Source: Byssochlamys sp. IMV 00236 (Eukaryota > Ascomycota > Eurotiomycetes > Eurotiales > Thermoascaceae). Taken from it: a DNA stretch of 64,000 nt. This document shows positions 5,928 to 64,000 of the stretch, in pieces (positions within the stretch are counted from its first letter, which is position 1; each line of letters begins with the position of its first letter). The position numbers were made by a program, and so were the translations under genes. The notes under the pieces were generated by a model. It had not been told where the DNA came from. It did not search any database and saw nothing but the letters and a program-made list of their open reading frames with translations. The stretch lies in the NCBI GenBank assembly GCA_001931875.2, contig MSJH02000511.1:1-64000 (forward strand), read 5' to 3'.

Positions 5928-5940
5928 CCTTTTACATGTA

Positions 5941-7830: not shown

Positions 7831-7843
7831 GTTACTTTTGTCT

Positions 7844-15742: not shown

Positions 15743-15746
15743 TTAT

Positions 15747-33947: not shown

Positions 33948-36900
33948 ATGTCCTCTTCTCCTGAAGGCTGGTTTTTCATTAAAAATTTGAACAACGGCTA
34001 CGTTCTGTCAGTCGAAAAGTTCACGGCTGGTGAACCTGTGGTTATCGCCTCCATCCGTAGCAAGGATGTTGACTCACAGCTCTGGCAACATAGCGAAGAT
34101 GGTCGTCTTCACAACAAGAAGACCGGGTTTGTTCTCGATATTGCCAAAGGTAAGCTTTTATTTATCATTTGACGCGTCTCAGTACCCTGACCAATTTTAC
34201 ATTAGGTGCTGCAAAGGTTGGCTCTGATGTGATCGTTCAAAGAGACTCAAACTCCTCTGATGGTCAAACCTTTGGTTTTTCTTCTGACGGCCACATTTAT
34301 CTGGCCAAAGATTCTAATCTTGTACTTGGAATCAAGGACTCCTTCTTCTCTCGTCGCGAAGGCCAACATGTTCATTTACAGTTGGTTGACAAGAAAAATG
34401 TCAAGGAACGCAAGGAGCAGCGCTGGGAATTTGTCTTGCCTGCAAAGCGTACCACTGTTGGTTCTGTTATTTCTGGTTCCGTTGATAGTTTGAAGCGTAC
34501 TATTAGTGGTGCTTCTCTTGGTAGCATTAGTACATCCTCTCTTCATTCTCATCATGGTACGTTTTTTCTAACGCGTCCTTTTTTTTTATTATCTCACTCA
34601 TGCGTTTTTAAAAAGATGAAGAAGGCTGTCTTGACGAGTCTGCTCATTTTCAATCGGATAATTTCCCTGAAAACGAGTTCTTTATTAAGTCTGAATCTAC
34701 CGGTTACTTCGTTGGCGTTGACGCTGCTTCCGTCAATGGTCCCGGTAGCAAATTGTCTCTTGAACCTCTCCGTAAAACTAATTATGAAAGCCAGCTTTGG
34801 CATTATGACGCTTTAACGGGCCGCTTGATTAACAAAGCCTCTGGCTTCGCTTTAAGTGCTGATAACATATCTGATGAAGCCCCCATTTGCCAATCTCCAC
34901 TGTCTTCTGATAAGGATCTAACTAAACAAGCCTGGGCCTTGGGTTCTTCTGGCTCCATCCGCTTAAAGAGTGATCCACACTACGTTCTCGGTTTCAAGGA
35001 TAATTGGTTTAACTTGAACCGTGAAGGTGCTAATGTCTTACTTCAAAAACAAAGTGACCACAAAGTTCACTCTCATCAAAAGTTTGTTATTGTTCTTCCT
35101 ATTTTCAAAAAGAAAACCACTGAAATTGTCTCTGCTACTGAACAAATTGGTGTATTCCCCGAGGGTTACTTTTTTATCAAAAATCAAAAGCATGGTCTTG
35201 TCATTACTGTTCTTGAAACTGAAAAGCTTGCTGCACAAGTTATCGCTACTAAACTGGATATGCAAAATTATAACCGTCAACTCTGGACTCACAAAGACGG
35301 ATTTCTCTTTAACAAGGCGTCAGGTTTGGTGTTGGACGTACGCGGTGGCTGTATAGTTGATGGTTCCGAACTTTGCCAGTATAAGCAAAAGTCAGAAGGC
35401 TATGAAAATCAGCAATGGGGTCTATCTGTCGAAGGCTTTATCCATGCCAAGACTCACAAGGACAAGGTACTTGCTATTGACGCACAATCAGGAGAAACGG
35501 CAAACCTTGTTTTGGCCTCCAGAAAGACACCCGATCACGAAGAACAGCGATGGAATTTTGTTCTGCCTGTCTTTAAGCAAAAGTCTTGTAAGTTTAACAT
35601 GAAGGCAGCATAGCTGTAACTGGATTTTAATTCTAATTTTTTTCCCTAGCTTCTGTTACAGAGACAACTGTCCAAAAGTCTGTTACTCATCATCATTATG
35701 CCCAATACCCAAGCGGCTGGTTCTTCATCCGCTCTTTTACCAGTGGCAGTACTAATGAATCTCCTCTTGTTCTTACTGCAAACGTTTCTGGAGACTCCTT
35801 TACTTTATCTAAAATCAGTAAGGAGGACTGGCGTTACCAACTTTGGATGCACTGGAATGGTATTTTAATCAATTTTGCCACCCAGTTGGCAATTGATGTT
35901 AACAGTAAGTCGCACAGTATTACCATTGTGTATCGTTTCTCTAAATTTTCTTGCATTTAATTTTTTCCAGACGTCGCAGTTGGATCTACCATCCGTCAAG
36001 AATTACGCCAGGCTAACTCTGCTTCTCAAAAATGGTTCATTACCACAGAAGGTTATCTTGTTCATGGCTCAAATTCGGCACTTTCTCTTATCCCAGAATC
36101 TACTGAATCTGGTTACAAACTCACTCTTGTTGAACACGCTTCAGTCAAGCAAGAGCACCGATGGGGTCTCTTATCTCCTGAAGTCAAGGTTGAAAATGGC
36201 CGCCAACTTTTGTCAAGCTGGAAGGTCTCTCTTTTGAGCGAATGCAAGAAAGTGAATGGCCAATATGTACAAAAGACAATCCATCGTATTGCCAACTGGC
36301 CAGAAGATACCTTCTTCATTACTGCACATAACGGCCTCGCCTTGGTGCCCGAAAAGCCACAATCTTACTCTACTGTCATTGTCAGCAAGTTGGAGGTCGG
36401 ACACTACGAGCGATTCCAATGGGCTTTCCGTGACGGCTTCCTTGTTCACGTGGCTACCGGTTTGGTCCTTCATGCGGAAGATGATCTGGTTGGTGGAAGT
36501 GAACTTCAGATCAGAGAACAATTAATTACCGATAAGCATACAATTGACCAACGTCAACGATGGCTCGTAAAGACCGATGGCTCAGTTGTCTCTGAAGTCA
36601 AGAATAACCTTGGTTTTGTCCTGGTAGAGCAAGACAGGCAATTCCATGTCCAACTTGCTTATTCTAACAACACAACCGAGCACTACAACTGGGGCTTTGT
36701 CCACGGTCATTATGAATCTCGCTATAGTGATGTCTACAAGAAGGAACTTCAAGTCTTGTCACGTACTGAAAGAATTCTTTTAACAGTCAGATACGGTCAA
36801 GGTAAATACCGTTAGATATACTGTTCATAATGAGCAATGCGCTAACCCTTGTCCCTTTTTTTATCGTTAGCTACTTCTTCACACACTAAACTTGTCACTC

Positions 36901-39900
36901 ATGTCTGTGGTGTATTCCCCGAGAACTGGTTCTTTATCCGTTCAAAGGCTGATAGTTCTCTTGTTTTGACCGTCTCTGATCGTAAAGAAGGAAGCAAGCT
37001 TATCCTTGCCAAGCTCGATACCAAGAATTTCCGTCGTCAACTCTGGCATGTTCAGGATGAAGAATGCCTCGCTAACCTTGAAACAGGCTATGTCATTGAC
37101 ATTGCTGGTGGTGCATTAAACCCTGGAAGTGACGTTATCCAATGGCATGAAAAGTTCTTGAAGAGACAACGAAAGAACCAAATCTGGGGCCTTACTGTAG
37201 ATGGTCACTTACACCCCAAGTCCCGACCTGGACTCGTCTTAGGTCCTAAGGGTAACAAGGCCGTTGATGGTGCTGAAGTCCAACTACACACTCGAGGCTC
37301 TCTTGACCTTGAATATCAACGTTGGTCCTTTGCTATTCCTGTCTTTGGAAGAGCTAACGGTACGAAGGCTACTGGTGTCTTGGAAAGCAGCAAAGAAGAT
37401 GTTTCTATTGAAAGTATTAGTGAAACTACTGTTACCACAACCAATGTTGATCGCTATGAACGTACCGAGAAGATCACTATTGTCCGTCGCTGGGGTGTGT
37501 TCCCTGAGGGAGGCTTCTTCATTCGTGTCAACTATGGTGAGGAACGTCTTGCCTTGACTGTTGAAAAGAAACCTATTACTGGTAGTGACGGTCTTACTGA
37601 ATACGAGGTTACCTTGAGACCTGTCAACTTTAAGGAATACCAATGGCACTTCTGGTTCTACCAGGATGGTCACCTTATCAATGCTCAAACTGGATTAGCT
37701 TTGGATGCCACTCCCGTTAAAGGCGTCTTGATTGAAGGCGGTCTGCGTACACCTTTGTATGTTCGTGAAAAGAACATGTCACAGTATCAATTCTGGTCAC
37801 TTACTGCTGATGGTGAAATCCATTTGAGATCCGATCAACGCTTAGTCGTCGGTGTCTCCAACTCCAGACGTACTTCTGTATCTGGTGCCCAAGTCGGTAT
37901 TCATGAACTTCGCGTTCGCAAGTTTGTTAACGAAAAGGGTCAACAAGAGGTCTCAATCAAATCTGAACAATGGCTTCGTTGGGTCTTCTCCAAGCCTGTC
38001 TATGGATCTAGCAAGTCAACTACGACTACTACTGAAGAAGTCACTAATGTCGTCTCTGCCATCACTGGTGGTCTTGTTGCTTCTAGTCAAGTAGTGGAAG
38101 GTTTCACTGATCATAAACTTGAAGTCAAGGAAACCGAAGAAAGCTCTGATGACTATGTTGAAGAAAGCGAAAGCGACGACGATGAGGACAGTGAAGAAGA
38201 CGAAGAGTCTGTTAAGCAAGGATCTGTCACTGACAAACTCAACCTTACCGGTAACTTGGGCATTGCCACTGCTGGTGCTACCATCTTGGCAGGTGCTGCA
38301 GGTGCTGCCAACGCTGTCACTTCCATCTTTGGCCAAAGCTCAAAGACAGATTCTACCACTGTTGCTGATAGTCAGAAGCAGGATACTGTTAACACCGAGA
38401 TCAAAAAGGTCACACATGCTTCTCGTCAAGACTCATTCCACCTTTCCTATCAGTATGTTCCCACTGGTTATGAAAAGGTTGTTCGCTACAAGTCTCATCA
38501 GAAGCCATTCTTCCCTACTGATGGTTACTTCATGATCAAGAGTTACCTTCATGGCTATGTCCTTGATGTGGCCAACGGTATTGCCAGAGACGGCAGCTAT
38601 GTTGTTCTTGCTCCTATCAAGACTACTGATTTTGCCAGTCAACTCTGGTCCTACAGAGGTGGCCGCCTTGTCAATCTTAAGGGACATAACCTTGTACTCG
38701 ATGCTTCTCTGACTGATAATGTCTCTTCAGGCGAACGTGTCGGTATCTCCACTCAAAAGACATCATTGGGTATCTCCGATCAACATTGGGAATTTGACCT
38801 TGACAGCGGTGTTATCCATTTAGCTGGCAAGCGTAGCCTCGTTCTCTCTGTTAAGGAGCTCAAACCTGCCACCGAAAAGTCCGGCCCTGTTGATGTCTTT
38901 GTCCAAGAAGAAAAGTCTCACAAGAAGAGTAACTTTGCTCGTGCTGAACAACGATGGGAAATTAAGGTTCCTGCTCTTGTTCCTGTCGATCAAACGAAGA
39001 CTACTAGTGTCGAATCCAGCTACACTATTATCGAGGCTGGTAAGGTCAGTGCTGTCTCAAGTTCTCTTTCTGCCGTTCTTGCTTTTGAATGGTTAAAGTC
39101 AACCTTCTACCATAAGATGGCTCACGACAACCAATGGCCTAGTACTGAAAATTGGTTCTTTGTCCGTGTTGGTAACGAAAACGCCTTCTTGAGCGCAGGC
39201 ACAAGCGCAAAGGATGAAGTAACGTTTTCTTCTATTGTTTCTCGTGATGACCATAAGCGATTCCTGTGGGCTTATGTTGATGGTTATTTGGTGAACTACA
39301 AATACATGCTTCGTCTTGTGTTCGACAAGAGTGCTAGCAAGCTGCTTCTCTCTAGCAGCACAGACACACTTACTCAAGTGTTCTATATTACCAGCAAGGG
39401 CGCTCTTTCTGTCAAGATCGACTCCGAAACTATTTACCTTGCCACAATCGTTGTTGACAAAGCAACAAGCAAGTACAGAGTCACTACTACCACTGAATCT
39501 GAGCACCAGTCAGTTGCTCATCCTATTCAGTTGCACATTCCTGTCTACACCAATTATCAAGTCGAGAAGGAAGCTAATGTAGCCTTGTCTACTGTTATCA
39601 CTTGGGTCCATACCTGTCAAAAGGTTACCACCACAAAGATTACCAAGTCCTACCGCTATGGTGTCTTCCCTGTCTCCACTTGGTTCTTCATCAAGGCCGA
39701 TACAAAGGGTGGTGACAGTCTTGTTCTTGCTGTAAAGGATAACGCTACTTCTGAAGGCGCCAGTTTGGTATTGAAGAAACTTAGCTTCAAGGACTACAAG
39801 AGCCAGCTCTGGACGTTCCGTGATGATTCATTGTATAATTACGGATCCAAGCTTGTGATTGATGTCCATGAAGGTGTTCAAGAGAATGCCTTGATCAAAC

Positions 39901-42900
39901 AGTCCTCTGAATCCGGTCTTGGTACACAGAAATGGTCTCTTACACCTGAAGGTCGTATTAAGCTTGACAGTTATGAGGAATATACTTTGGGTATCCGTCA
40001 ATCCGACAGTATTGTTGAAGATACCGAACTTGTATTGCTTCAATATAACGAGTCAAAGGCTGCCCAAGCTATCACTTGGAAGTTCTCCGTACCAGTATTT
40101 GGCAAGAAGAATGCTGAACATGTTACTTCTATTGATACCATTGCTGCTTCTATTGAAGAAGGTGCTGTTATCGAAACCGTTGAAGAGATCAAGTTCAAGG
40201 TTGATGAAGTATTTGCCAAGAAGACCAAGCGCTCTTCTAACAATGTCGCAAAGACTGATGACAAGGAAAGCCATCATGATGCCCATGACATCCTCAGTAG
40301 CGTTGGTATCGTAGCTGGTGCTGCTGCTGCTGGCACAGCTGTTGTTGGTGTAGCTTCCAAGATTATGGATAAGCTTACTGAAAGCTCTGACTGCAAGAAG
40401 ACCGACTCAATAGCCACCACTGCCGTTCAAAAACAAGAATCCAAGTCCAAGGTTTCTGCAACCGACAAGTCCAAGAATACTGAAACAGTCGTTGTGCGTC
40501 GCTCTAAGCGCACATCAGTACAGGTTATCCAAGAATCCCAATCCATTGTTCGTGCATGGAGAATTGTGTTCAGCCAACGCATTCACCGTTGTGCTTCAAA
40601 GACCGAGTTGATTCAAGCCATTGAGGAATCTCGTGAAGAATTGTTCAGACGTTTGGACGAGCATCTTCGTGTCTACACCTCTGTTGAACACATCGTCTCC
40701 GGCTCCATTCCTGAATGGCATGTCTCCATTCAGCAAGTCAAGGAGCTTTACCGTGCTCGTATCTTTGAAAGCTTCCTTGATCGTTTGCATCATGAAGACA
40801 TCAACTATGCTAACGAGCTTGACTTCGACTCTGTCTTGGATTCTGCTACAGAAGAAGTTGATCGTCACTATGCCTCTGTGATTGAAGAACAAAAGAAGGT
40901 TCAGACGGAAGTTTCTACTAGTGTTGAAGGCAGCACTACAACGGAAGTGTCTTCCCATGAACACATTCTTCTTACTGTCGATACCATCAAAGTCAAGATT
41001 CGTTACTGGCTCATTGGATTGTACGAAGCCATCTCAGTCGCCAAGAAGAACGGTAGCTCTGAAGAGGAAATCAATACTATTGTTGAAAACTCTCGTAAGC
41101 AGCTTTCTGTCGAATTGAGTGAAATCAGATCCTCTGTTACCACTCACGTCGAGAAGTCCTCTACCACATTGGCTTCTAAGCAAACTTCCATTATCAACAC
41201 AATTGACAAGGCCATCTCTCAGACAGAAACCTTGGTTACCAAGCAAGTCACTGCTATTCGTACTGAGAAGCACTATGAAGTCTCTGAAGAGTACTGGCTT
41301 GAAATAACTCGTACTGCCGAAGAAAGCTTGTCTTCTGAACTCAAAGTTTATCAGAATGCTATCACTCAAGAAGTCTCTGAGGCTCAAAACAGTCAAGTCA
41401 GCAAGACTGATCAAGCTGAGATCTCAGTTGTCTTGGATGAAAAGATGGTCAGTGTTGCCCAAGAGACAGTTAGCAACAAGTTGATCGAAACAAAGACCAA
41501 GCTTACCAGTTGGTTTACGGAAGTCACTCAACAAATCTCTTGGATCGCAGAATCCTCTTCATCTCAGGAAACCTTGAAGCAGGACACCATTGCTATTGTC
41601 GATGCTGCTCAGATCGAGCTTGCTACTCGTATTGAGGAAGCCAAGTTGGTCTTACGTACATACTATGCCCATTTGACTTATCTTAGCTGGGCTGAGCGTC
41701 GTCGTATTGAGTATTCCTTGGATAACATCAAGGCATCCATTGTGGCCAATATTACTCACTTCAAGCAATCAATTGAAAAGCAAGAAGTTACAAAGGAGGA
41801 GATTATTCGTTACTCCAACTACTCCTTTGGTGCTACTGTCTCCCGTATGGTTGTCTTGGATATTCAGACAATCGTAACCAAGGTATCCAAGGTTAAGGAA
41901 ACCAAGACAGTTGTCAATACCTCTGACGAAAAGAAGGCTGAGGTCGCAAAGGTTGGTGTCATTGCCGAAAAGAAGTCCACTACCACTGATAAGGTTGATA
42001 CTGTTAAGACGGATGTTTCCAAGACCCAAGAAACCCACAAGGTCGCTGTCGATCAAAAGACCCAAGTAACTGATAAGGTCGAAGCTGAAGTTGAACAAAC
42101 CAAGGTTGGTAAGGTCGAAGAGAAGGTCTCTACAGTCGTTGAAGAGAACAAGACCTCTAGCAACACTGGTAAGACCGTTTTGACTGCTATTGGTGCTGCT
42201 GCTGCCGCTATGGCAAGTGCTGCTATCTTCCATCACCATGAAGGCAAGGAAACTCAAGAAAAGAAGGAATCAGGCGTATCAACTGCTGTTGTTGAGAAGC
42301 CTTCTGTTACTCAGACCAACGTTGTACTTGGAGGTAACGCTGAGACTCTTCATGAACATAACAAGAAGAAGACTACTACTACGAGCAAGCAAGAAAAGTC
42401 TGAGACTCTGGTTGTTGTCTATGATCAGGTCCAAGTCACTGTTCAGGAATGGCTCACCAACTTGAATAAGCGTATTCTTGAATGTGCTCAAAAGAAGTCT
42501 GAAAACGTTCAAGAAGAGATTGATACAATCATTTATGAATCTCAACAAGAACTTGTAGTCGCTATTGAAAAGGCCAAGAGAACAACTACTTCTGTCATCG
42601 GCACTTCTCAAACCTCCTTCCATGACACTCTTGCTTGGATCCGAAGCACTGTTTGGACTCAAACTTCTGAAGTGAAGCGCGTTGCTCATGAATTTGCTAC
42701 TTCTTCAGAGACTGATGTCGCTGTTTATGAACAGAAGCTTAATTCAATCAAGGAAACCACCTTGTCAAAGGTCAATACCACCATTGAAAAGACTAAGCAA
42801 TCTGCTGCCTCAATTCATATTGTTGGTCATGAATCATCTGCTACTATTGCTGCTGGCAAGAAGTTTGAAGGCGTTGATTACTCCAAGACTAGCCACGGTG

Positions 42901-45900
42901 AATCTGTCGAAAAGACAAAGGTTACAGTTGGTATCCTTATTGAAGAGACCCGAACCACTGTTCGCCGTACTCTGGATCAACTTGCTATTTCCATTGCTGA
43001 ACGTCGCAAGCAAGGAGGTGAAAATGTTCAAAGTGATATTCAAGAGATTGTCAAGAAGTCTCGTGAAGAAATCACGCGTTATATCGAGCACTCCAAGAGT
43101 GAGTTTGAAAAGCGTATCACTCATACTCACCAAGTGAAAGAATCCTCAAGCAAGGTTGAAATTGAATTAGTAAAGGAAACCAACAAGAAGGTTCAAGCTA
43201 CCTTGGAGCAAATTCAAGAAACCGTTTTGGTACAAGTATCCAAGGTTGAAGAGGTCTCTACTACCGTTGCTACAACTGAAATCACTGAAGTAGAATACTC
43301 AGAGAAGCTGACTTCCATCTGTCATGAGGCTTACGAAAAGGTCAATGCAACCTTGTCTGTATCTGAGACTATCATTGGTCATCACGTTGAAGTAGTAGCT
43401 GAATCATCTACTGTTGAACACACTACTACTACCGAAAAGACCGAGTCCAAAAAGGTTTCTTTGGGTGTTGAATACGGTATCGTAATTGTCGCTGAAACTA
43501 CCAAGGTCGTCTCTAGTCAATTGTCTCAATTGATTGAGCGTATTCATCATCGTATTACAACTAGCAAGGAGACTGTCGAAGTGGATGTTGAAAGCTATGT
43601 TAAGGAATCCAATGCTGAAATCGACAAGGCCCTTGATGAAGCCAAGTCCAAGATCGAGTATGAACTGTCCATGGTTGCTTCACACGAAAAGGTTGAAGAG
43701 GAGCACTTCCTTGCTGTTATTGAAGAATTACGTACATCATCCAAGAAGCGTATTTCACAAGTACAGGAAGTCGTCGTTTCCAAGAAGGAAGAAACCAAGA
43801 CTGTCTCTGAACGCTTGATGCAAATTGCTGAGGAGTCTCGTCATGAGGTTTCTTCTCATCTTGAATCCTTCAAGGAAACTGTATTGAACAAGACTGAAAA
43901 GGTCAAGGAATCAACTCACCAGGGCTCTTCAGGCTCTACTGTCGTTACCCAAGTTGAAGAAAAGGACCATGAATCCAAGGTTGACCTGGCCAAGAAGGTT
44001 CTTTTGGGATCTGCTGCAGTTGCCGCTGGTACAGCCATTGCTGTTGAAGTCGCCAAGAAGGTTTCTGAACATAAGCAAAAGGTTGAAGAAGAAGAGAAGA
44101 TCAAACAACAAACAGTTGTTGTAGTTGAAGATGTCAAGACGCAATTCAACCAATGGATCTCTTCTCTCACTGAAACCGTTGTGAAGCAAACTAAGGAATC
44201 CCAAGTTTCTCAAGAGGAAATCTCCATTACTGTTGAGAAATCCAAGACCGAATTCTTGGAAGTTATCAAGAAAGCCAAGACAAGCACAGTCATTACTGAA
44301 CAACATCAACAGGATGTCTTGAACTGGATTGAACAAACTGTTGTTGCTCAAGCTAACCGCATTCAGGAAGTTGCTGTCAAGTCTAGTTCTTCTAGCGTGG
44401 TTGACATTGAATCAAGACTTGAAATCATCAAGATTTCCACTACTCAAGAAGTCGAAAAGGCTTTGGAGAAGGTCAAGGACATCAAGTCTTCCACTACCAA
44501 GTTTGTTGGTTCCACTATTGAGCAGCTTCAACAAAAGGAATCTGCCTTATTGGACGTAAAGAGTGAACTCACACTTGTCATTCAAGATGTCAGAACCTCT
44601 CTTGTCACCTTCTTCCAAAAGTTTACTAGCTCTGTTGTTGAACGTGTCAATCAAGGCGGCGATAATGTCTCAAAGGACGTTGCTAATTTGGTTGCCAACA
44701 CTAGAAAGGAGGTTACAACCTACATTGAAAATGTCAAGAATACCGCAACAAAGAAGTTGTCTTCTTTGGAAACCAAGTCAGCTGCCTCAGTTATTTCAGT
44801 TGCAACACTCTCTGGTATTGCTACTGCTGAACTTATTTCTGCTATCAAGTCTACTGAGGAAACTCTCATCGAGAAGGTTAACCGTGTGTACTCTACTGTT
44901 TGGTACATTGAAAAGAACCAGGACACCACTGAGATCATTCAAACCATCCAAACCATTGAAAAGGAAACTACAGTTGAAATCACTACAAAGATCGAAAGGT
45001 CTCATAGCAACGTTGTCAGCGGAATTAAAGAACACCATCATGCCGGTCATATCACTGCCACTGAGACTGTTCATCATGATAGTGCATCCTTGTCCGCTTC
45101 ATTGACCATTCAAGAAGTTAAGGTTACTATTCGTGAATGGCTCCGTACTGTTGCCGAAAGAGTCTCTGTCACTTCTCAAAAGGGTGGCTCATCCGAAGAA
45201 ATCGAGTCTATTATCAATGAAGAAACTACTCGTATCTACGAATACCTTGATTCTTCAGTAACCAAGATTTCTGAACATGTCAAGTCCGAAGAAAAGATTC
45301 AATATCTTCATTCAACTGTTGAGAAGATCAAGTCTACAATCAACAAGACTACCACTGAAATCAAGGTCATTGGTGTCGAGTCTTCTGGCAAGTCCAACTC
45401 TTATGGTGGCTTTGACAAGATGACCTCTGTTATCACCGAACACGAGCACATCATCAGTGAGACACTTGTTACTTATGAATCCAAGACTACAGTCAAGGAA
45501 ACCCATAAGCAGGAATCTCAACATGAGGAAATCGTCAAGCATGAGGAGACCAAGCAAAGCAAGAATGTTGAAACCGTGATCACAGTTGAATACCTCACGA
45601 CTACTATTCGTACCTGGCTTGAAGAGCTCATGATTGAAGTCTCTGAGGTTGCTAAGCGCGAACATGATATCAATGTTGTCACGAAGCAAATTACTTCAGT
45701 CATCAGTGACGCCAAAGAATTCATCACTACCGAATTGGAAATCGTCTCCAAGAGAGTTCGTCAAACGAAGTCTAGCTCTTCTCAAGAACTTGTCAACGCC
45801 ATCCAATGGTCTGTTGGTATGATCCTTCAAAGCACTACCCAAATTCAACAAATCGGCGTCAACTCTGCTGTGTCCTTCAGTACAACTGGCGGTATTGAAC

Positions 45901-48900
45901 AAATGCGTTCTTTAGTCAGCGCAACTGAGACTCAAATCAAGGTTGTTCTCGAACGCTGTGACAAGACCATCAAGGTCGATATTGAGCGTAATGCTACTCA
46001 TTGCGAAAAGTACAAGGCTGTAAGTTGTTATATGCAGAATTTATTACACTAGCTAACATGTATATTCTTAGAAAAAGGAACACAGAAAGCAAGAACGTGA
46101 AAAGGCTGATAAAGTTAAGAAGTCCAAAGACCAAAAGAAGAAACCTTGTGATTCCAAGAAGGATAAGAAGGACAAGAAGTCAAAGAAGCATGACTCTGAT
46201 TCCGAGACTGAATCTGATTCTGATGACTCTGACAGTGATCATTCTGATGCTGATGACCACAAGCAGAAAGTTAAGCATGAAAAGAAGAAGATTGTTAGTG
46301 GTGAAGCTGCCTTGAGTGTCTCTATCATTGTCCGCGAGTGGTACGAAAAGCTCATTGTTGATATCTCTGAGCGTGCCAAGAAGGGTGGATCACATGTCGA
46401 CACCGATATTGAAACTATTGTTCAAAAGTCTACTCGTACTGTCACTGAGAAGCTTCGTCTGATCAGTGAAAATGCTCACAAGTCTCTTGCTGACGTCTCT
46501 ACCGTTCAACAGTACCGTGCCTCTATTGAATGGGCCAAGAACTTGGTCATCCAGAGTAGCCAACAAATCAAGAGCATTGGTATCAACACCGCCATCTCTG
46601 GTACTTCCAAGACCGGTGGTATTGAGCAAATGCGTCCTATTGCAGTTGCCATTCAGCAACAAATCGATGTTGAAATCCGCCGCTACAAGTTGATCACTGA
46701 AAAGCAGCAAGCAACCTCTACTACCTCAGAAGTTGTAAAGAAAGTGGAATCCAAGCCTGTAAGCTCTGTTGAACACAAGTCCAACAGTCAAAAGATCTCT
46801 GTCAGCAAGGAAACCGCTATTGCACGTAAAGAGTACTGCCAGAAACTTCAGACGCATGTTACAGAAGTTGTTTCTGAATCCAAGACTGTCATTACTGCTT
46901 GGTTCTCTCAGGTTATCAGAGACGTTTCTCTTCGTGTACACCAGGGAGGTGATAACGTCCAACAAGACGTTGCTATCATCGTCAAGCAATCCAAGGCTCA
47001 ACTGGACGAAACTCTCAAGCGTACCCACAAGAAGCTTGTCTCTTCTATTGAAGTTCATGAAGAAGATGAGACATTCTCTGTTATCGAATCTCATATCCAA
47101 CAAAGCTTCGAAACTATTCAAAAGACTGTGGACTCCAGAGTAACTCAGATTCAAGAAGTTACTGTTAAGTACAAGTCCGAAACTGAAGTTACCGAGAAGC
47201 TCGCTGGCATCTTGGAAGTCTCAAAGGTACAAGTTAACGAAACTTTGGACACTGCTTGCAAGCACGCAGTTACAGTTATTCAGGAAGAAACTGTTCAGAC
47301 TGAATCTACTGTCACAATTGTTGAAACTGTTGAATACGTCAAGTCTGTAGTCACCTCATGGCAGACAAAGCTTATAGAACAAATTCATGAAATCAGCATT
47401 GATGAAACTATCGAGAATAAGGAAGAACGCATTAATATTCTTATTCAGGAAGCCAATACCGAAATTGAGCGTGTCACTAAGGAGGCCAAGACTAAGATCA
47501 ACGAAAACTGCACTTCAGTCAAGAAGATCAGCAAGTCCAAGCAACAAGAGCTTTTGACTACCATTGACTATGTTCAAGAGACTTTCACTACTGACGTCAA
47601 GAAGGTTCAGGAAGTCAGCGTTGAAGCCGTCAAAAAGTCTGAGACCAACGTCAAGGAATCTATTTCCTCTGTCATTGAGTCTTCTCGTAACAAGATTGAT
47701 AGCTTCCTCACTCGTACCGCTGCTGTTGTTGTAGGAACTGCAACCGCTGCCATGGCTGTTCATGCTATCAAGAAAAAGCATGACGAAGACAAAAAGGTTG
47801 CAAAGAAGACCGAAACCAAGTCCCAAGACCAATGGTCTCTTACTGCTCAAGAAAACGTAAAGGCCATCTCCCAATGGTTTGAACTCTTTACTCAGCGTGT
47901 ATCAACCACTGTACGTCAGCAACAAGGAGATATCACTCAACACATCACCTCTGTTACCGAACACGCCGAGCAAGAAATCTCTGATATCATTGCTACTGCT
48001 CGTAACGATTTCGTCAAGCGATTGTCTCATGAGAACTTGGACCAAGAGGCTTACAGCTATGCTGTGTCTCACTACGAAGAAAGCCTCGAGTCTGTCCGCA
48101 GCTCCATCTTGGTTGAAATCACCGAAGTCAAGAAGGTTGCTATCGAAGCTCACACAGCTGGCAAGGTTGAAATCCTCGATATTGAACTTGGCAAGCTTGT
48201 GAACGAATCCTCTGAGCGCATCAAGGTTGCTATGGGTTCATCTGTTTCCATTACTCACAAGACACAGTCAGAACATGCCTCTGGAAGTGCTGGATCCGTC
48301 GTACATATCGAAGTCAAAGACGAGCAAGAAGTCATTGGTGAAGAAGAAATTGACGTTGAAAAGAAACAAGAGTCTGTCGCTATTGAACACAAAGACAAAG
48401 GTATGTTATCGAATGAAATACATAGGACAACTTCTAATCATTTTCATTAGCTCAAGAAACCAAACATCAGTCTGGTCTTGGAAAGGTTGTTGCTGGCTCT
48501 TTAGCCGTTGGAGCTGCTGCTACCGGTGCTGCTGCCATCATTCATGAAAAGCACAAGAAGGAAGAAAAGGACTCCAAGAAGACCGATTCCCGTCTCAAGT
48601 ACGACACTGGTGTTGCTACCGTAGAGAGTGTCAAGATTACCATCTCTGAGTGGTTCAAGACTCTTGTCCAAAAGGTCTCCACTGCCTCCAAGTCTGGAGC
48701 TTCTTCTGAGCAAATCACAGTGATTGTTCAAGAATCTCGCACAGAATTGACTCAAATCATTGAACATGCCAAGGTTACTGGTGCTGCTCATTGCTCATCA
48801 GCTACTGATGAACAACAGTACATTAGCAAGATCGAATGGGTCTCCTCTGTCGCTCAAGCTCAAGCTACACAGATCCAACAGATTGGTGTCAATGCTGTCG

Positions 48901-51900
48901 TTAGCAAGACTGATCTTACAGCTCAAATGGAATCTTTAGCTACCGCTTCCTTCCATCAGATTGAGGCCACTTTGGATCAAGTCAAGACCTCTGTCAACTT
49001 CCACCAAAAGATCAATAAGCTCACCGGTAAAGTTGTAGACACAACCAAGCACTTGTCCAAGCCTATCACAGAAAAGACTACTTCTGCTGTTGACAAGACC
49101 AAGATTGCTTATGGTGTCATTCAAGAGACCCGTGTTGCCACGGTTGCTCTCTTCGTCTCCTTATCCGAGAGTATCGTCAACCGCATCCGTCAAGGTGGTG
49201 CTAATGTCCAAGAAGACGTGAACAAGATTGTCGAGTCTAGCGAACAAGAAGTTGCCAAGATCTTTGAAAAGGCCAAGACTACCTCTGTTGAAATCGATGA
49301 AAAGACTCGTCTTCAACTTGAGAACTCTCTTATCGAAGTCCACAAGACTGTTCAAGAACAAATGACGCAAGTCAAGACAACCACCATCGAAGTTGTCAGT
49401 TCAACGACTACTGATTCCAAGGTAGCTATCGAAAAGGTCCTCGAAGTCAGCAAGTCCTCAAAGAGCAAGATTGAAACTGGATTTACCTCAATCTCTGAAA
49501 CCATTACTGCAGGCCGTAAGTTGTAAATTAGTATTACATTGTCCCCATACTAAATTATCTTTATAGTTGTTATCGTTAGCCAAACCGCTGAAAAGGCCAC
49601 CAAGACCATTCAAGGTTGGTTCTCTGAACTTACTGAAAAGATCAACAAGGTCTTGGAAGTTAGCGACTGCACTGAAGAAGAGAAGCAGCAAAAAATTAAT
49701 GCTGTTGTTGCTGAAGCTGAGGTTGAGATGAAGACCAAGATTACAAAGATGCAAGAAGAAACAACGATTGCTGAAAAGAAGACTTCTACCGAGGTCTCTA
49801 CAGATCACCACTTGGATGTCTTCTTTGGAAATATCACTTCAACTGTTGAAAGCCAGTTGAACCAAGTCAAGGTTGCTGTTCAAGACAAGAACAAGATTAA
49901 TAAGACAACGATCAATGATGTACTCAAGACCACCGAAACCAAGTTGACACAAGAAGTCAATACTCATTATGATGCTGTCAAGAAGATTACGGCCGTTGAC
50001 CATATCACTGGTACTGCTCAACAGGTCGCCAGTCAAGTTGAAAAGAACAGACATGAGTTATACAAGGACACTATTGAAAAGGTCGCTGTAGGTACTGCTG
50101 CCGTAGCTGCTGCCGCCGCTGTTGCCATTGGTTACCACAAGAAGAACCAACAAGCTGAAACCACCTCGGTTGAAGTCGTCAAGGAAACCTACATTCGCCA
50201 AGTCCGTTCCAAGGTAGACACCTGGTTCACTCGTCTTACTGAAAAGGTCATTGCTCGTACCAAGCAAGGTGGCGATAATGTGTCTGTTGATGTTGCCAAG
50301 ATTGTCGAATCTGCTCAAGGTGAACTTGAAGTCATTGTCAATGAAGCCAAGAGTCAACACAAGACTGAATATGAGTCCTCTGAAACGAAGCGTACATTCA
50401 CCAGCACTCTTGAATGGATCAAGACCACAGCCGTGACTCAATCTACTCAGATCACAGAAATTGTCAGCCATAGCTCTTCCAGCTCCATTGATTTGTCTAC
50501 TCAAATCGAAAACCATGTCATGACTACCAAGCAACAGATCGACAGCGCATTTGATATCCACTACAAGAACGAATCAAGCACTGTTGTCAAGACTGAAGAG
50601 AAGATCAAATTATCCAAGGAAGAGGCCGACTCTAGCTCCACCTCAGTCGAAGTTGTTTCTGGTGAAGAGAAGCATGAAAATGTTGTTCAAGTCGTTGTTG
50701 AAACTCGTGAACAAACGCAGAAGCGTATCAGCTTGGAAACAACTGTGATTGTTCAAGAACGCAAGACCGAGATCACCAACTGGCTTGTTCTCCTCATGGA
50801 AAGCTTGACTACTATTATCCACAGCAATTCCGATAACATCCGTCGTGATCTCTTTGCAAGGCTCGACGTTGCTGAGAAGGAAGTCGACACCATTGTCCAA
50901 GACACCAAGAAGAAGTTCCTTTCCATCACTTCATCCTCTGCAACTAGCAAGGTTGATGTAGAAACACAGAAACTTGTCACAAGCTCCATGAAGCAATCTC
51001 TTGACTGCATCGATAACATCAAGGTCACCGTCCTTCGCCAGATCTCTGTTGTTCGTGAAATCTTGAGCCGTATTGAAGTCGAAGATATTGACGTGATCAC
51101 CGAAAGAATCCACGCTGTCATCACTCGTACTCAGCAACGTGTTCACCACACCTTTGATGCTGGTATTGAATTGGCCATCACCTCTGCCTTTGAAGGCAAG
51201 GTTGTCACCTGGTCTGAGATTGCTACTATTCCTCAATCTTTCAAGGACGTTCGTGTGGTTGCTTATGATCTCGTTGGAACCGTTGTGAACTACCGCAAGA
51301 CCTTGTATGAAGTCTGGAAGAGAATTGTTACTCCCAAGAACGATGTTGTTCTCAGCACATTGGACTTTAACAACTTTGTCAATGACTGGTTCGGTGCCTA
51401 CTCTGAAATCAAGAGAAACAACTTTGTCCAGAAGCGTCCTGTCTCCGATGATGTTAGCCTTCACGAATCCCTTGTTCACATCTTGCAACGCTACTATGTC
51501 AGAGAATCATTCACTGATGCCGAGATTGAAGAACTCTGCGAAAGCTGGAGAAAGATTGATACCTATGAAGATGCATCCATTGGTGTTCGTCGTATCAAGA
51601 ACCAAACCAGTTCCAAGTATGCCACCATCGCCATCTCCGACTCTTTCTCAACTCGTACAATGATCGATTTGGCCCAACAAAACTGTCTCTGCTGGCATGC
51701 TCAGTTCTCTGCTGAGATGTTTACTGGTACAAGCCAATCCGCTACTGAAGCCGTTGTTGAAGGAACTATTCGTTTGCTTGGCTTGAAACGCGCTAGTGAA
51801 CTTGCCCTTGTCTCATCCAACGCTCAATTGGTCTCTGCTGCCAAGAAGCAAGGTTGTCATGCTGTCTTGATCGAACGTGAAGACTTTGCCCAACACACTG

Positions 51901-52070
51901 AGCATGTCTCAGTCGAGTACGATGTCAAGGTTGATGGTTTGGACGTCTTTGGTGAAAGTGTACAAGCTTTCTGGGAACATGAGTCTATGGCTCAAGTTTG
52001 GAACGACAAGCAAGCACCATCTGCTCCTGCCGTCTTTGTTCAAAAGGTCAAGGGATGGTTTAACAAATAA
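33948..52070 (+). CDS. Giant ~5,885-aa protein: beta-trefoil array, helical repeats, HAD-like C-terminus
   Basis: Nine exons (33948-34149, 34206-34556, 34616-35587, 35650-35904, 35971-36801, 36871-46019, 46072-48400, 48451-49515, 49567-52070) join in one frame. All eight introns have GT-AG ends and are 50-70 nt. Residues 1-1,950 hold ten beta-trefoil-like modules. Residues about 2,085-5,600 hold some 19 helical repeats, and residues about 5,610-5,870 a degenerate haloacid-dehalogenase-like fold. Seven Ala/Gly-rich hydrophobic segments lie near residues 1331, 2011, 2638, 3244, 4469, 4706 and 5223. Charged linkers occur near 1290-1320 (acidic) and 3921-3995 (Lys-rich then Ser/Asp-rich). There is no signal peptide, so it is probably cytosolic or membrane-associated from the cytosol. 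Codons favour AAG, GTC and ATC, suggesting high expression. I know of no named protein with this layout; function is unknown. There is no ricin A-chain-like (toxic) domain. Confidence 0.88.
33960..40110 (+). repeat. Ten tandem beta-trefoil-like protein modules
   Basis: The coding sequence repeats a unit of about 170 residues ten times. Each unit opens with a W/YFFI[KR] strand (EGWFFIKN, ENEFFIKS, EGYFFIKN, SGWFFIRS, EDTFFITA, ENWFFIRS, EGGFFIRV, DGYFMIKS, ENWFFVRV, STWFFIKA). A QLWxxxxDGxLxNxxTGxVLD strand set follows, then a DGxIxxxxxxxLVLG set, and the unit closes with a QRWxFxLPVF-like strand. The internal QxW spacing is that of ricin-B-type or fascin-type trefoils. An acidic linker and the first Ala/Gly-rich segment separate modules 7 and 8. 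Sugar-binding residues cannot be judged by eye. Exons 1-5 each end inside modules rather than at module borders. Confidence 0.75.
40510..51230 (+). repeat. About 19 Trp-containing helical protein repeats
   Basis: A diverged helical unit recurs every 150-200 residues. Its first half reads roughly I-x-x-W-[FL]-x-x-L, then a GG-[DES]-N-V loop, then x-x-D-I-x-x-I-V-x-x-S-x-x-E-L-x-x-x-I. The Trp or its equivalent falls near 40556, 41006, 41511, 42449, 42960 (no Trp), 43510 (no Trp), 44153, 44605 (no Trp), 45137, 45612, 46336, 46900, 47357, 47874, 48650, 49145 (no Trp), 49615, 50217 and 50777. A second half often follows, with WIxxxVxxQxxQIQxIG (for example SIEWAKNLVIQSSQQIKSIG). The text is Thr/Ser/Val/Lys/Glu-rich and helix-forming. 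I do not recognise it as spectrin, plakin or another known repeat. Confidence 0.75.
51236..52020 (+). other. Degenerate haloacid-dehalogenase-like domain
   Basis: Residues about 5,610-5,870 follow the order of a type II haloacid dehalogenase. Motif I reads AYDLVGTVVNY (Asp nucleophile position kept), then a helical cap with LHESLVHILQRYY. Motif II reads TIAISDSFS, followed by CLCWHAQFSAEMF. The motif III Lys is absent (GTSQSATEAVVEGTIRLLG), and the motif IV acidic pair is missing (LALVSSNAQLVSAAKKQG). The fold call is from pattern only, but the order and spacing are good. Loss of the Lys and the acidic pair suggests an inactive domain. The exact copy in the right arm (61427-62211, minus) has the same changes. 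Confidence 0.6.
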
Positions 52071-52959: not shown

Positions 52960-54157
52960 TTATACTTCTATGTCTTTTTGTTTTTCTTTCCAAGAAAGTC
53001 TTTTTCTAAAATAAAGGCAAATGTATGAAATAATAACTAAAACAGGCACTTCGATTAATGGACCAATAGTTGCAGCCAGAGCTTGTTCTGAACGTATGCC
53101 ATAAGTTCCAATAGCAACAGCAATGGCCAGTTCAAAGTTATTGCTACTTGCTGTAAAAGACTGGGTGACGACTTGCTTGTAAGGAAAGAAGATCTTTAGG
53201 ATGAAGAAGGGAATAAAGAACATGATGATGAAATAGCAAACCAGAGGTACAGCCGTACGACAGACAGGACCTATATGATCAATGATTTGGTGCCCCTGAT
53301 TTGCAAACATGATAATGATTGTATATAAAAGACCAACAAGAGCCAGAGATCCAAATCGATTTATGAATTTTTCTTCATACCACACTGAGCCTTTCCATCC
53401 TTTCAAAGTAAAGCGAGTAATCACTCCAGCAACCAGAGGAATACCCAAATAGATCAAGACGGATCGAGCAACAGCCCAAATATCAACTACGACAGATTTC
53501 TCTGGAGGTGCACCAAACCATGAGGGTACTATGTTGATAAACAGTACTGCATAAGGAGAATATAAAGCAATCTGAAGTATCGCATTGATCGCAACCAAAA
53601 TAGCACAGTAATCTGAATCACCTTCAGCAATGGATACCCAAATGAGGACCATAGCGATACATCTAGCTAAACCAACCATAACAACTCCTGTTCGAAGTTC
53701 AGGCAGATCAGGTAAACAAGCCCATGCAAGAGCAGTCATGACGATAGGACCAATGATCCAGTTTATGAAAATGGATATAGCAATTTGTAACCATACTTGT
53801 TTCTTTGATAATATGATATGAAGCTGTTCATATTTCACCTTACAGAGAACAGGGTACATCATGACAAGTAAACCTATAGCAATAGGCACCGATACTGAAC
53901 CAAATTGGACAGTTTCAAATGACTCTTGTACATGAGGAACATAATAACCAATGACGACACCAATTATCATTGCAAGTAATATCCATAATACCAAGAATCT
54001 ATCTAATAGATTTAATTTCTTTATAGGCGCTATTGCAGAGATAAGATTAGATTTCATGACTATTTCTTTTCATTGTAATCTTACATAATTCGGCCTGCTC
54101 ATCCTTTAATGAATCATGTTTTTCTATAACATCCTTTTCTTCTATAGGACTTGACAT
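52960..54157 (-). CDS. ACR3: Arsenite efflux transporter Acr3 (left copy)
   Basis: Exons 54157-54085 and 54029-52960, separated by a 55-nt intron, give 380 residues with about ten membrane helices. Acr3 exports arsenite from the cytosol across the plasma membrane. The family Cys in helix 4 (GLARCIAMVLIW) and Glu in helix 9 (AIGPLIEVPVLV) are both present, as is LLDRFLVLWILLAM at the first helix. An ORF starting at 54057 lacks the first exon; using exon 1 (MSSPIEEKD) restores a normal hydrophilic N-terminus. The bZIP gene follows on the same strand 40 bp after the stop. Only about 145 bp of upstream sequence is shared with the right copy. Confidence 0.95.
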
Positions 54158-55061
54158 GAAAATATTTTTAAAGAAAGAAAAAGAGGCACATATAAGATAA
54201 GCGTATACCTGTCATTTATACGGCTTGATCTTGTTACACACGGAGAACTGGGTTTAAAATGAATGAGTAATTACAATTTTCAAGGTAAATGGCACTTTTT
54301 TTTTTCTTGCTTACTACAGTGGTGACAGTTCTCATTGAATATGAGACAAAAAAGATTGAGAAAACCCAACTCAAGGTTTTTATATATATACAATCATGCT
54401 TAGAAAAGAAATCTTGATTAATTTATTCAAGAATTCATTGTATATCCAGCACTTATACTCTATTTCAAGAGCAATTACTTGAATAATGATCGATTCATCA
54501 AGCGGACAAGAGCCTATCAGCCGGATAGATATACCAACATGGAAACAAATAGCTATGTTGAAGCCTGTAACCACCAGCTCAAGACTAGTTATCTACAAAG
54601 AGTTGGCAGGCTGGTGTTGTCGTAGATCAATGCCTGATTCTTACTGACAGTGAAATAAACGACAATGATCAATATGAAATAAGATCATGTAAACACTTTT
54701 ATTAATGAATCATGTATAATATGAATAAATCATTACTGCTTTCGTATATAAAGGAATACACGCCCCCTAATAGATAATCTTTCTTACGGTAAAAGAAGAT
54801 AACCCAGATTAGTAAATGGACAATACAATTAGTATCAGAAACGAATTAAAAATTTTATTTATCAATTCATAAATCGTTAGTCATTCAGATCCTCTAGGAT
54901 TCATGTTTATGATTAACATAATCGTGATTTTAATTATTTTGCCTGGGCCAAGGATCACCCCAGAACTCGATCTCTGATGATCATTTGTTTTTATTTAAAA
55001 AGAAATCAAATTGCGAGAAAATAAATATCTCTTTCTTTTTCTTTTTCTTTAACAATACACA
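54158..55061. other. Left ACR3 upstream region and spacer edge
   Basis: 54158-54302 is the promoter-proximal stretch shared with the right ACR3. Beyond the T tract, from 54303, the sequence is unique. No gene is visible; the last 35 bp before 55062 are a CTTT-rich pyrimidine tract before the isomerase start. Confidence 0.6.
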
Positions 55062-55869
55062 ATGTCTGAGCAAAAGCCCGTTCTTTATGGTTACTTTAGA
55101 TCTTCTGCTTCTTATAGAGTTAGAACTGTCCTTGAGATAAAGGGAATTGAATATGACAAAAAGTTTATCAACTTGTCCAAAAAGGAACAAGTATGTGTAT
55201 AAACATGTTTAGGAGTTCATAACTAATGAGTATGAAATAGTTATCTGAAGAATATAAAAAAGTAGTTCCTACCCAAAAATTACCTGCTTTTATTACTAAA
55301 GAAGGCAGACTAATTCTTCAAAGTCAAGCTATTGTTGATTATCTTGATGAAGTTTATCCAGGTTTGTATCAACTACTTGTCATATATCGGAAAGCTTATT
55401 TATCTTAAAGAACCCCCTTTATATCCCAAGGATCCTGTTGACCGCGCTCTAGTAAGTTTTATTTTTATCTTGTTTATACATTTATTTATTTTATATACAA
55501 CAGGTTCGCGAAATTTGCCAAATTATTGCATGTGACATTCACCCTCTTCAGAATTATAGGATCTTGCAACGTGCTGCTCCCGATAGTCATGAAGAGCAAA
55601 CTGCATTTGCCAAAGAGACGATTACAGAAGCATTCAAAGGCCTCGAAGCACGTCTTTCTAAGGTTGCTAGTAAATATTCTTTTGGCAATACCTTAACGAT
55701 GGCTGATGTCTTTGTTGTTCCTATGATAATTAACGCCATGCGACGTGACGTTGATATGTCTCAATTCCCCATCTTGTCTCGATTGTTTGATACTTTAACT
55801 GCCTTGCCTGAGTTCAAGCGAGCTAGCCCTTCTGCTCAACCTGATTGTCCTCCTGAATTAAAGAAATAA
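55062..55869 (+). CDS. maiA: Maleylacetoacetate isomerase (zeta-class GST)
   Basis: Exons 55062-55190, 55241-55361, 55411-55451 and 55504-55869 encode 218 residues, the normal length. The enzyme isomerises maleylacetoacetate to fumarylacetoacetate in phenylalanine/tyrosine catabolism, using glutathione. Visible features are an N-terminal thioredoxin-like domain starting VLYGYFRSSASYRVRTVL, the glutathione-contacting QSQAIVDYLDEVYP, and an all-helical C-terminal domain with YSFGNTLTMADVFVVP. The usual SSCS active-site motif reads SSAS here, so the Cys is Ala; its Ser residues, which bind glutathione, remain. It is the only intact gene in the unique spacer between the two inverted arms and occurs once in the window. 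Confidence 0.92.
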
Positions 55870-57694: not shown

Positions 57695-57727
<33 letters not shown>

Positions 57728-61376: not shown

Positions 61377-64000
61377 TTATTTGTTAAACCATCCCTTGAC
61401 CTTTTGAACAAAGACGGCAGGAGCAGATGGTGCTTGCTTGTCGTTCCAAACTTGAGCCATAGACTCATGTTCCCAGAAAGCTTGTACACTTTCACCAAAG
61501 ACGTCCAAACCATCAACCTTGACATCGTACTCGACTGAGACATGCTCAGTGTGTTGGGCAAAGTCTTCACGTTCGATCAAGACAGCATGACAACCTTGCT
61601 TCTTGGCAGCAGAGACCAATTGAGCGTTGGATGAGACAAGGGCAAGTTCACTAGCGCGTTTCAAGCCAAGCAAACGAATAGTTCCTTCAACAACGGCTTC
61701 AGTAGCGGATTGGCTTGTACCAGTAAACATCTCAGCAGAGAACTGAGCATGCCAGCAGAGACAGTTTTGTTGGGCCAAATCGATCATTGTACGAGTTGAG
61801 AAAGAGTCGGAGATGGCGATGGTGGCATACTTGGAACTGGTTTGGTTCTTGATACGACGAACACCAATGGATGCATCTTCATAGGTATCAATCTTTCTCC
61901 AGCTTTCGCAGAGTTCTTCAATCTCGGCATCAGTGAATGATTCTCTGACATAGTAGCGTTGCAAGATGTGAACAAGGGATTCGTGAAGGCTAACATCATC
62001 GGAGACAGGACGCTTCTGGACAAAGTTGTTTCTCTTGATTTCAGAGTAGGCACCGAACCAGTCATTGACAAAGTTGTTAAAGTCCAATGTGCTGAGAACA
62101 ACATCGTTCTTGGGAGTAACAATTCTCTTCCAGACTTCATACAAGGTCTTGCGGTAGTTCACAACGGTTCCAACGAGATCATAAGCAACCACACGAACGT
62201 CCTTGAAAGATTGAGGAATAGTAGCAATCTCAGACCAGGTGACAACCTTGCCTTCAAAGGCAGAGGTGATGGCCAATTCAATACCAGCATCAAAGGTGTG
62301 GTGAACACGTTGCTGAGTACGAGTGATGACAGCGTGGATTCTTTCGGTGATCACGTCAATATCTTCGACTTCAATACGGCTCAAGATTTCACGAACAACA
62401 GAGATCTGGCGAAGGACGGTGACCTTGATGTTATCGATGCAGTCAAGAGATTGCTTCATGGAGCTTGTGACAAGTTTCTGTGTTTCTACATCAACCTTGC
62501 TAGTTGCAGAGGATGAAGTGATGGAAAGGAACTTCTTCTTGGTGTCTTGGACAATGGTGTCGACTTCCTTCTCAGCAACGTCGAGCCTTGCAAAGAGATC
62601 ACGACGGATGTTATCGGAATTGCTGTGGATAATAGTAGTCAAGCTTTCCATGAGGAGAACAAGCCAGTTGGTGATCTCGGTCTTGCGTTCTTGAACAATC
62701 ACAGTTGTTTCCAAGCTGATACGCTTCTGCGTTTGTTCACGAGTTTCAACAACGACTTGAACAACATTTTCATGCTTCTCTTCACCAGAAACAACTTCGA
62801 CTGAGGTGGAGCTAGAGTCGGCCTCTTCCTTGGATAATTTGATCTTCTCTTCAGTCTTGACAACAGTGCTTGATTCGTTCTTGTAGTGGATATCAAATGC
62901 GCTGTCGATCTGTTGCTTGGTAGTCATGACATGGTTTTCGATTTGAGTAGACAAATCAATGGAGCTGGAAGAGCTATGGCTGACAATTTCTGTGATCTGA
63001 GTAGATTGAGTCACGGCTGTGGTCTTGATCCATTCAAGAGTGCTGGTGAATGTACGCTTCGTTTCAGAGGACTCATATTCAGTCTTGTGTTGACTCTTGG
63101 CTTCATTGACAATGACTTCAAGTTCACCTTGAGCAGATTCGACAATCTTGGCAACATCAACAGACACATTATCGCCACCTTGCTTGGTACGAGCAATGAC
63201 CTTTTCAGTAAGACGAGTGAACCAGGTGTCTACCTTGGAACGGACTTGGCGAATGTAGGTTTCCTTGACGACTTCAACCGAGGTGGTTTCAGCTTGTTGG
63301 TTCTTCTTGTGGTAACCAATGGCAACAGCGGCGGCAGCAGCTACGGCAGCAGTACCTACAGCGACCTTTTCAATAGTGTCCTTGTATAACTCATGTCTGT
63401 TCTTTTCAACTTGACTGGCGACCTGTTGAGCAGTACCAGTGATATGGTCAACGGCCGTAATCTTCTTGACAGCATCATAATGAGTATTGACTTCTTGTGT
63501 CAACTTGGTTTCGGTGGTCTTGAGTACATCATTGATCGTTGTCTTATTAATCTTGTTCTTGTCTTGAACAGCAACCTTGACTTGGTTCAACTGGCTTTCA
63601 ACAGTTGAAGTGATATTTCCAAAGAAGACATCCAAGTGGTGATCTGTAGAGACCTCGGTAGAAGTCTTCTTTTCAGCAATCGTTGTTTCTTCTTGCATCT
63701 TTGTAATCTTGGTCTTCATCTCAACCTCAGCTTCAGCAACAACAGCATTAATTTTTTGCTGCTTCTCTTCTTCAGTGCAGTCGCTAACTTCCAAGACCTT
63801 GTTGATCTTTTCAGTAAGTTCAGAGAACCAACCTTGAATGGTCTTGGTGGCCTTTTCAGCGGTTTGGCTAACGATAACAACTATAAAGATAATTTAGTAT
63901 GGGGACAATGTAATACTAATTTACAACTTACGGCCTGCAGTAATGGTTTCAGAGATTGAGGTAAATCCAGTTTCAATCTTGCTCTTTGAGGACTTGCTGA
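61377..64000 (-). CDS. Second copy of giant gene, 3' part (cut by window end)
   Basis: Exons 63880-61377 and 64000-63932 (partial) match exons 9 and 8 of the gene at 33948-52070 exactly in translation, including the 51-nt intron. It encodes the last helical repeats, one Ala/Gly-rich segment and the degenerate HAD-like domain. Whether the gene is full length or truncated lies outside the window. The reading frame is intact as far as visible. Confidence 0.9.

Follow-up and report, generated by a model that had tools for sequence, protein, structure and literature searches.

In this study, we analyzed a window of 64,000 nucleotides, meaning the whole stretch of DNA given above, from a contig deposited as Byssochlamys sp. 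IMV 00236, and focused on a giant gene on its forward strand (33948..52070). Judged from its sequence, this gene very probably encodes the gellin of Rhizopus microsporus, a wound-gelling type of protein known from the pin moulds. The first third of the protein fits the known gellin kind, and the repetitive rest and the dead-enzyme end are still without explanation. The R. microsporus protein RMATCC62417_03911 (P0041) equals the window protein in length, at 5,885 amino acids (aa), and shares 99-100% identity with it across all four regions compared; the window therefore comes from R. microsporus or a very near relative. The initial annotation had presented the gene as an undescribed architecture of unknown function; neither description can be kept, because the array of ten trefoils points to the published, wound-gelling gellin family and the protein has already been deposited for R. 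microsporus. The gellin kind was thus already known, and what was new to us was the other two-thirds, that is, a helical-plus-hydrophobic unit and a conserved dead haloacid dehalogenase (HAD)-like end. The features of the gene are as follows:

33948..52070, + strand: gellin-like gene, 5,885 aa; open spliced translation, equal in length and 99-100% identical to R. microsporus P0041
33948-34149, 34206-34556, 34616-35587, 35650-35904, 35971-36801, 36871-46019, 46072-48400, 48451-49515, 49567-52070, + strand: exons 1 to 9
33957..40100, + strand: ten beta-trefoils (1-5 at aa 4-147, 200-349, 363-505, 525-666, 701-837; 6-10 at aa 884-1029, 1078-1248, 1418-1572, 1624-1763, 1800-1947); profile search, and Pfam Ricin_B_lectin in exons 3 and 6
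33957..34444, + strand: trefoil 1; 58% identity to the solved domain 6lci 'mdaA-1'
38256..38306, + strand: Ala/Gly-rich segment 1, aa 1333-1349, between trefoils 7 and 8; hydropathy
39045..39095, + strand: hydrophobic motif before trefoil 9, aa 1596-1612; hydropathy in 21 of 23 proteins
40302..40352, + strand: Ala/Gly-rich segment 2, aa 2015-2031; hydropathy
40530..51188, + strand: 19 helical repeats, aa 2091-5592; iterated profile, composition and periodicity
42177..42227, + strand: Ala/Gly-rich segment 3, aa 2640-2656; hydropathy
43998..44048, + strand: Ala/Gly-rich segment 4, aa 3247-3263; hydropathy
47719..47769, + strand: Ala/Gly-rich segment 5, aa 4470-4486; hydropathy
48492..48542, + strand: Ala/Gly-rich segment 6, aa 4711-4727; hydropathy
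50082..50132, + strand: Ala/Gly-rich segment 7, aa 5224-5240; hydropathy
51225..52067, + strand: pseudo-HAD end, aa 5605-5885; retains the nucleophile Asp, with no motif III Lys or motif IV Asp found

A profile seeded with trefoil 3 and iterated over the window protein and 22 long relatives recovered exactly ten trefoils (i-Evalues 8.4e-31 to 1.5e-50), the number that had been proposed at the outset; this profile and that of the helical repeats were trained on the same set of proteins, which makes their E-values optimistic. Pfam Ricin_B_lectin (PF00652, cut-off 29 bits) matched the exon 6 piece with 96.5 bits and exon 3 with 52.8 bits, exons 1, 2, 4 and 5 lying outside this Pfam scan, and of sugar-binding features only a Q-x-W-like motif pattern is listed for the trefoils. 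The PDB entry 6lci ('mdaA-1', 206 residues), which differs from the window protein in being a single domain, matched trefoil 1 with an E-value of 3e-59 and the other nine trefoils at 26-36% identity over their best stretches. Among the 22 long relatives, 21 were matched at their N-terminus with 42-62% identity, the top scores being in Absidia and Radiomyces; P0044, the N-terminus of which is cut, reached 34%. Since 6lci fits trefoil 1 best in the window protein and matches the N-terminus of its relatives, it is trefoil 1 of an orthologue, presumably from another Mucorales species. Our guess is that 'mdaA' was an earlier name of a gellin.

Gellins are not known from outside Mucoromycota. According to the gellin paper of Nguyen and colleagues (Current Biology, 2021), these proteins reportedly consist of ten related beta-trefoil (Gll) domains in tandem and are said to be cytosolic, with hydrophobic motifs among the trefoil domains. 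Flow reportedly unfolds some of the trefoils, which then form sheets, the hydrophobic motifs are said to bind membranes, and loss of gellin reportedly results in bleeding from cut hyphae. The window protein resembles the gellins so described in its Mucorales origin, its probable cytosolic nature, its ten related beta-trefoils and the hydrophobic motifs among them, and we read it as a gellin because a ten-trefoil array in a Mucorales protein is the reported signature of this family. Ten tandem copies were found, and two hydrophobic stretches lie among them, namely the motif before trefoil 9 and the segment between trefoils 7 and 8. Specifically, a 17-residue stretch with a mean hydropathy of 1.0 or more precedes trefoil 9 in 21 of 23 proteins, the window protein included, and falls short in P0048 (0.93) and P0051 (0.31), while Ala/Gly-rich segment 1 is weak or absent in several distant relatives. 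One review states that Gellin proteins of Mucorales are activated by disturbance and cause protoplasmic gelation, and that Gellins were not detected in Glomeromycotina (PMC12712441). Protoplasmic gelation in aseptate Mucoromycota is mentioned, with reference to the gellin paper, in another publication (PMC10023807), and the gellin paper also stands in the reference lists of PMC11842775 and PMC9723744.

Rebuilding the gene model from the sequence left the coordinates unchanged. Eight GT..AG introns of 50-69 bases each separate nine exons, which add up to 17,658 nt, coding for 5,885 aa and a stop codon, and the spliced translation keeps a single frame throughout, with no internal stops. The claim of one continuous in-phase gene was thus borne out, and the relatives likewise appear as one model. 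A scan with 17-residue Kyte-Doolittle windows (peaks of 1.4 or more) gave the first hydrophobic window only at aa 1333, in agreement with the proposed lack of a signal peptide. With a reference set of just two genes (a ribosomal L3 gene and one EF-Tu-type gene), the codon adaptation index of the whole giant gene was 0.55 vs. 0.22-0.44 for nine other open reading frames (ORFs) of the window, so that the reported codon bias was recovered; along the gene, the index was 0.44 in the first 1,000 codons, equal to the best neighboring ORF, and 0.53-0.59 later. The protein had been suggested to be an abundant intracellular structural protein, and its intracellular, structural character stands, while its probable abundance in the cytosol is suggested solely by the codon bias.

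The protein search gave 24 matches, and 22 long proteins were aligned after the fragments P0001 and P0004 had been left out. Seventeen of these 22, P0041 included, showed the trefoils, the helical repeats and the HAD end in the same order (ten or more trefoils, 13 or more helical repeats and no less than 90% of the HAD region), and the check set in advance, a conserved order of parts in Mucorales, thus came out in favor of the initial annotation for these three kinds of parts. The five exceptions are presumably partial gene models: P0002, P0003 and P0035 were without the HAD end, P0044 had only eight trefoils, and P0051 had nine trefoils and six helical repeats. The searches were word-based, and the absence of taxonomic orders other than Mucorales among the matches is weak evidence. 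Twenty of the 22 long relatives had ten trefoils or, in one case, 11; the number of helical repeats ranged from 13 to 31 among the 17 complete ones. In the seven most distant proteins, mean identity was 0.45 for the trefoils and 0.37 for the HAD region, against 0.31 for the helical part.

The named genera among the matches were Rhizopus, Mucor, Choanephora, Blakeslea, Parasitella, Helicostylum, Sporodiniella, Pilobolus, Apophysomyces, Radiomyces, Zychaea, Backusella, Absidia, Cunninghamella and Hesseltinella. All named matches belong to Mucorales by name, as a check confirmed for four less familiar genera; Phycomyces and Lichtheimia were not among the 24 matches of this word-sharing search. 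One record named Paenibacillus, a metagenome-assembled genome (P0012), encodes a part of the giant fungal protein that covers 71% of the exon 6 query with 57% identity, and its bin therefore probably holds Mucorales DNA. The deposited Mucorales records of the giant gene are labelled 'hypothetical' or 'uncharacterized'. Literature searches by the gene names RO3G_13835 and RMATCC62417_03911 found no paper, a search for giant or ricin-type Mucorales proteins was without match, and among the papers listed by broader searches none named the giant protein in the title or the start of the abstract. A proteomics paper (PMC11320294) reports a 'Ricin B lectin domain-containing protein' (EIE86504.1) from gel band 16 with 23% coverage, a candidate for the giant protein that was set aside.

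The iterated profile identified exactly 19 copies of a helical repeat of ~145 aa, with i-Evalues from 4.7e-4 (repeat 1) to 1.7e-40, matching the estimate of about 19. Proline makes up 0.1% of these repeats, and their hydrophobic period peaks at 3.67 residues, the power at 3.6 and 3.75 being almost as high, as is expected of helices. With repeat 4 as reference, the other eighteen were 14-31% identical, and this low identity indicates an old divergence in Rhizopus rather than recent duplication. The hydropathy scan gave nine peaks, seven of which are the Ala/Gly-rich segments proposed earlier (hydropathy 1.5-2.1); the other two are the motif at aa 1596 before trefoil 9 and a peak at aa 3507 inside repeat 8.

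Tandem amplification of the helical-plus-hydrophobic unit was found in four of the eight proteins examined. Residues in recurring 8-mers numbered 34 in the window protein, 0 in R. delemar, 34 in Apophysomyces sp. and 25 in Radiomyces, vs. 2,643 in Zychaea (period 186), 1,212 in Absidia (184), 2,872 in Cunninghamella (about 225 and 418) and 3,480 in Hesseltinella (87 and 255), and the amplified unit contains a hydrophobic segment in Zychaea, Cunninghamella and Hesseltinella. By one common criterion, Hesseltinella has 32 hydrophobic segments, Zychaea 22, Cunninghamella 14 and Absidia 12, as against 8 in the window protein (the seven and that of repeat 8) and just 3 in Choanephora and Blakeslea, where others lie under the threshold. 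Given these varying numbers of segments and repeats, the ends of the protein are fixed and the middle resembles a polymer of adjustable length. Alternating basic flanks as a mark of multi-pass topology were rejected, as no alternation was visible: over 203 segments of 23 proteins, both flanks were basic (mean K/R/H per 12 residues 3.45 and 3.94), the C-side flank being more basic in 110 and the N-side flank in 57. With such flanks, the segments may still insert into membranes.

The last 236 aa matched a HAD-type epoxide hydrolase / haloacid dehalogenase in PDB (E 6.5e-11), and a profile of the exon 9 family reached E 3.1e-14 against PDB HAD proteins; no Pfam family was found in exon 9 up to E 1. 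The NCBIfam model HAD_type_II (TIGR01428) matched with E 3.6e-12 and 46.7 bits, below its cut-off of 125.4, whereas a standalone type II HAD elsewhere in the same genome (C664, L017 3395-4294), our yardstick for the dead domain, scored 155.6 bits, with Asp, Lys and Asp in place and a codon index of 0.19. When the HAD regions of the window protein and of 19 relatives were aligned to this yardstick, the nucleophile Asp of motif I was present in all 20 and the motif II Ser in 19, while the motif III Lys and motif IV Asp, both present in C664, were found in none at the aligned columns, the alignment being loose at motif III. The HAD-like end is thus similar to type II HAD proteins (PDB 8wbm and 8wbr) over about 210 residues and in the position of the nucleophile Asp, and differs from them in the two missing residues and the score below the cut-off. 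These results agree with the description of this end as degenerate and suggest a conserved pseudo-enzyme that has likely lost its activity.

Three other explanations were weighed. That two or more neighboring genes had been read as one would account for the change in composition between the trefoil and helical parts and for the deposited models that end early (P0002, P0003 and P0035). Nevertheless, a single exon (aa 871-3920) covers trefoils 6-10 and helical repeats 1-10, repeat 10 lacking only its last two residues, and the 17 complete relatives are each one model with all three kinds of parts. Furthermore, the frame of P0039 (6,099 aa, 18,300 nt), which fills a contig of 18,598 bases, differs in length by 0-9 aa at the eight window-intron junctions, where one intron would add 17-23 aa, and its largest difference (+9 aa at junction 7) is also present in the annotated protein P0040; such an intron-free frame filling its contig is as expected of a transcript assembly. 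A merger of genes was rejected on these three grounds and is extremely improbable. In another explanation, the protein coats membranes or lipid droplets, the helical repeats being amphipathic helices like those of apolipoproteins and the Ala/Gly-rich segments being membrane anchors. Pfam Apolipoprotein (PF01442, the A1/A4/E family) matched five of the 19 repeats when E-values up to 1 were allowed (best 3.5e-7) and a piece of exon 6 at E 1.1e-4, Phasin matched two repeats (best 0.013), and both the hydropathy of the segments and the strongest hydrophobic period are as a coat protein would have them. Long amphipathic helices are thus shared with apolipoproteins, but the exon 6 piece scored 22.3 bits against a gathering score of 90, the single repeats being listed by E-value only, and matches to apolipoprotein E in PDB were at E 0.15 or worse, with designed helical proteins scoring better. 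Homology is unsupported, and membership in the apolipoprotein or lipid-droplet families was rejected, as the profile matches are too weak. Moreover, the near-identical loops between successive segments in distant relatives fit poorly with alternating sides of a membrane. A coat function in place of gelation is highly unlikely, and it may instead be part of the gellin mechanism.

Somewhat less remote, though still improbable, is a giant tether or scaffold unrelated to gellins, in which each conserved end would attach to a structure of its own and the middle would stretch between the two, as in the leashins. Leashin, the Woronin-body tether of Ascomycota, is likewise giant, has a repetitive middle and serves wound plugging. 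It is not known to share a domain with the window protein, no search for leashin similarity having been made. The great length of the protein, its ends conserved above the middle, the variable repeat number and the unlikely enzyme activity all agree with a tether. What a tether leaves unexplained is the fixed set of ten trefoils, with 10 or 11 in nearly all long relatives, which fits gellins.

In favor of gellin, we counted the number of trefoils, the 6lci match, the hydrophobic motifs of the trefoil region, the review statement on gelation in Mucorales and the codon index, together with the retention of a HAD domain without its motif III Lys and motif IV Asp and the better conservation of the ends than of the middle with its variable repeat number. 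Several points weigh against this identification. Ten trefoils are only the presumed mark of gellins, mdaA is only a presumed gellin, and the link to gelation is proposed from sequence. The match covers the trefoil third; the 19 helical repeats, seven Ala/Gly-rich segments and pseudo-HAD, described here from the window protein and its relatives, may or may not be part of the published gellins. The nucleophile Asp is kept in all HAD regions and may leave the domain capable of some chemistry; moreover, the region around motif III is variable in length, and several relatives have a Lys a few positions later. In addition, the Ala/Gly-rich segments could be true membrane spans, and glycine-zipper packing of these segments was rejected, small-xxx-small patterns being not above shuffles (p 0.08; G type 0.42).

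If the protein is a gellin, the following course may be proposed. In intact hyphae, it would be soluble in the cytosol at a high level, as codon bias and the lack of a signal peptide suggest. Once a hypha is cut, turgor would drive a fast flow, the force of which would unfold some of the ten trefoils and join them into sheets, while the hydrophobic motifs would bind organelle membranes, both steps following the mechanism reported for gellins; the leaking protoplasm would then set to a gel and plug the wound. The 19 helical repeats and Ala/Gly-rich segments might serve as a flexible spacer of great length through which the protein gains additional contacts with membranes or other copies, adding reach and extra adhesion, and the HAD end might be a folded docking or capping domain rather than an enzyme. 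A bolder reading, which we regard as possible but rather doubtful, is that the C-terminal two-thirds form an undescribed second gelling engine, in which a silk-like, amplified unit of Ala/Gly segment and helical repeats, with about seven segments in Rhizopus and as many as 32 in Hesseltinella, would cross-link membranes or itself once flow opens the trefoils, capped by a dead HAD docking site.

With its 113,446 bases, the contig appears to be a perfect inverted repeat in which position i pairs with 113447-i. Comparison of window positions 19447-64000 and the contig up to 94000 (positions 1-19446 left out) covered 37,276 positions, and all 1,743 mismatches fell within 54293-56723, so that two identical arms flank a unique loop of about 4.9 kb (54293-59154). 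The inverted repeat is either a real palindrome or an assembly product. The giant gene lies on the contig twice, in mirror order, and two neighboring ORFs were also assigned:

61377..64000, - strand: 3' part of the mirror copy, running beyond the window; inverted repeat, found by search
52960-54057, - strand, mirrored at 59390-60487, + strand: sodium/bile acid symporter-family ORF, adjoining the giant gene; E 2.3e-45
15747-17612, - strand: RPE65-family ORF (carotenoid-cleavage type); E 3.4e-78

Searches of the genome with helical, trefoil and C-terminal queries, the counts of which are lower bounds, gave no second full gellin beyond the two mirror copies. They otherwise found at least a C-terminal paralogue (C234), the standalone HAD described above, two small trefoil genes (C684 and C328) and one further weak match on C90. 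The C-terminal paralogue (L016 2-4966) is a 1,654-aa frame open at the contig edge, its N-terminus missing from the contig; helical repeats come after repeats of another kind, the HAD-like end at its close, with an identity of about 30-34%, likewise lacks the Lys and Asp, and its codon index is 0.58. The small genes (C684, L033 about 1922-2527; C328, L067 1598-2410) each encode a single trefoil related to those of the giant protein, with no signal-like N-terminus by eye.

These findings attach a published wound-sealing role to a giant gene whose Mucorales records, as far as found, bear the label 'hypothetical' or 'uncharacterized', and some of the Mucorales that carry it infect people or rot food. 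In addition, in the 17 complete relatives the ten-trefoil array accounts for no more than about one third of the protein, and the gelation model may therefore miss a large repetitive region that evolves by tandem duplication.

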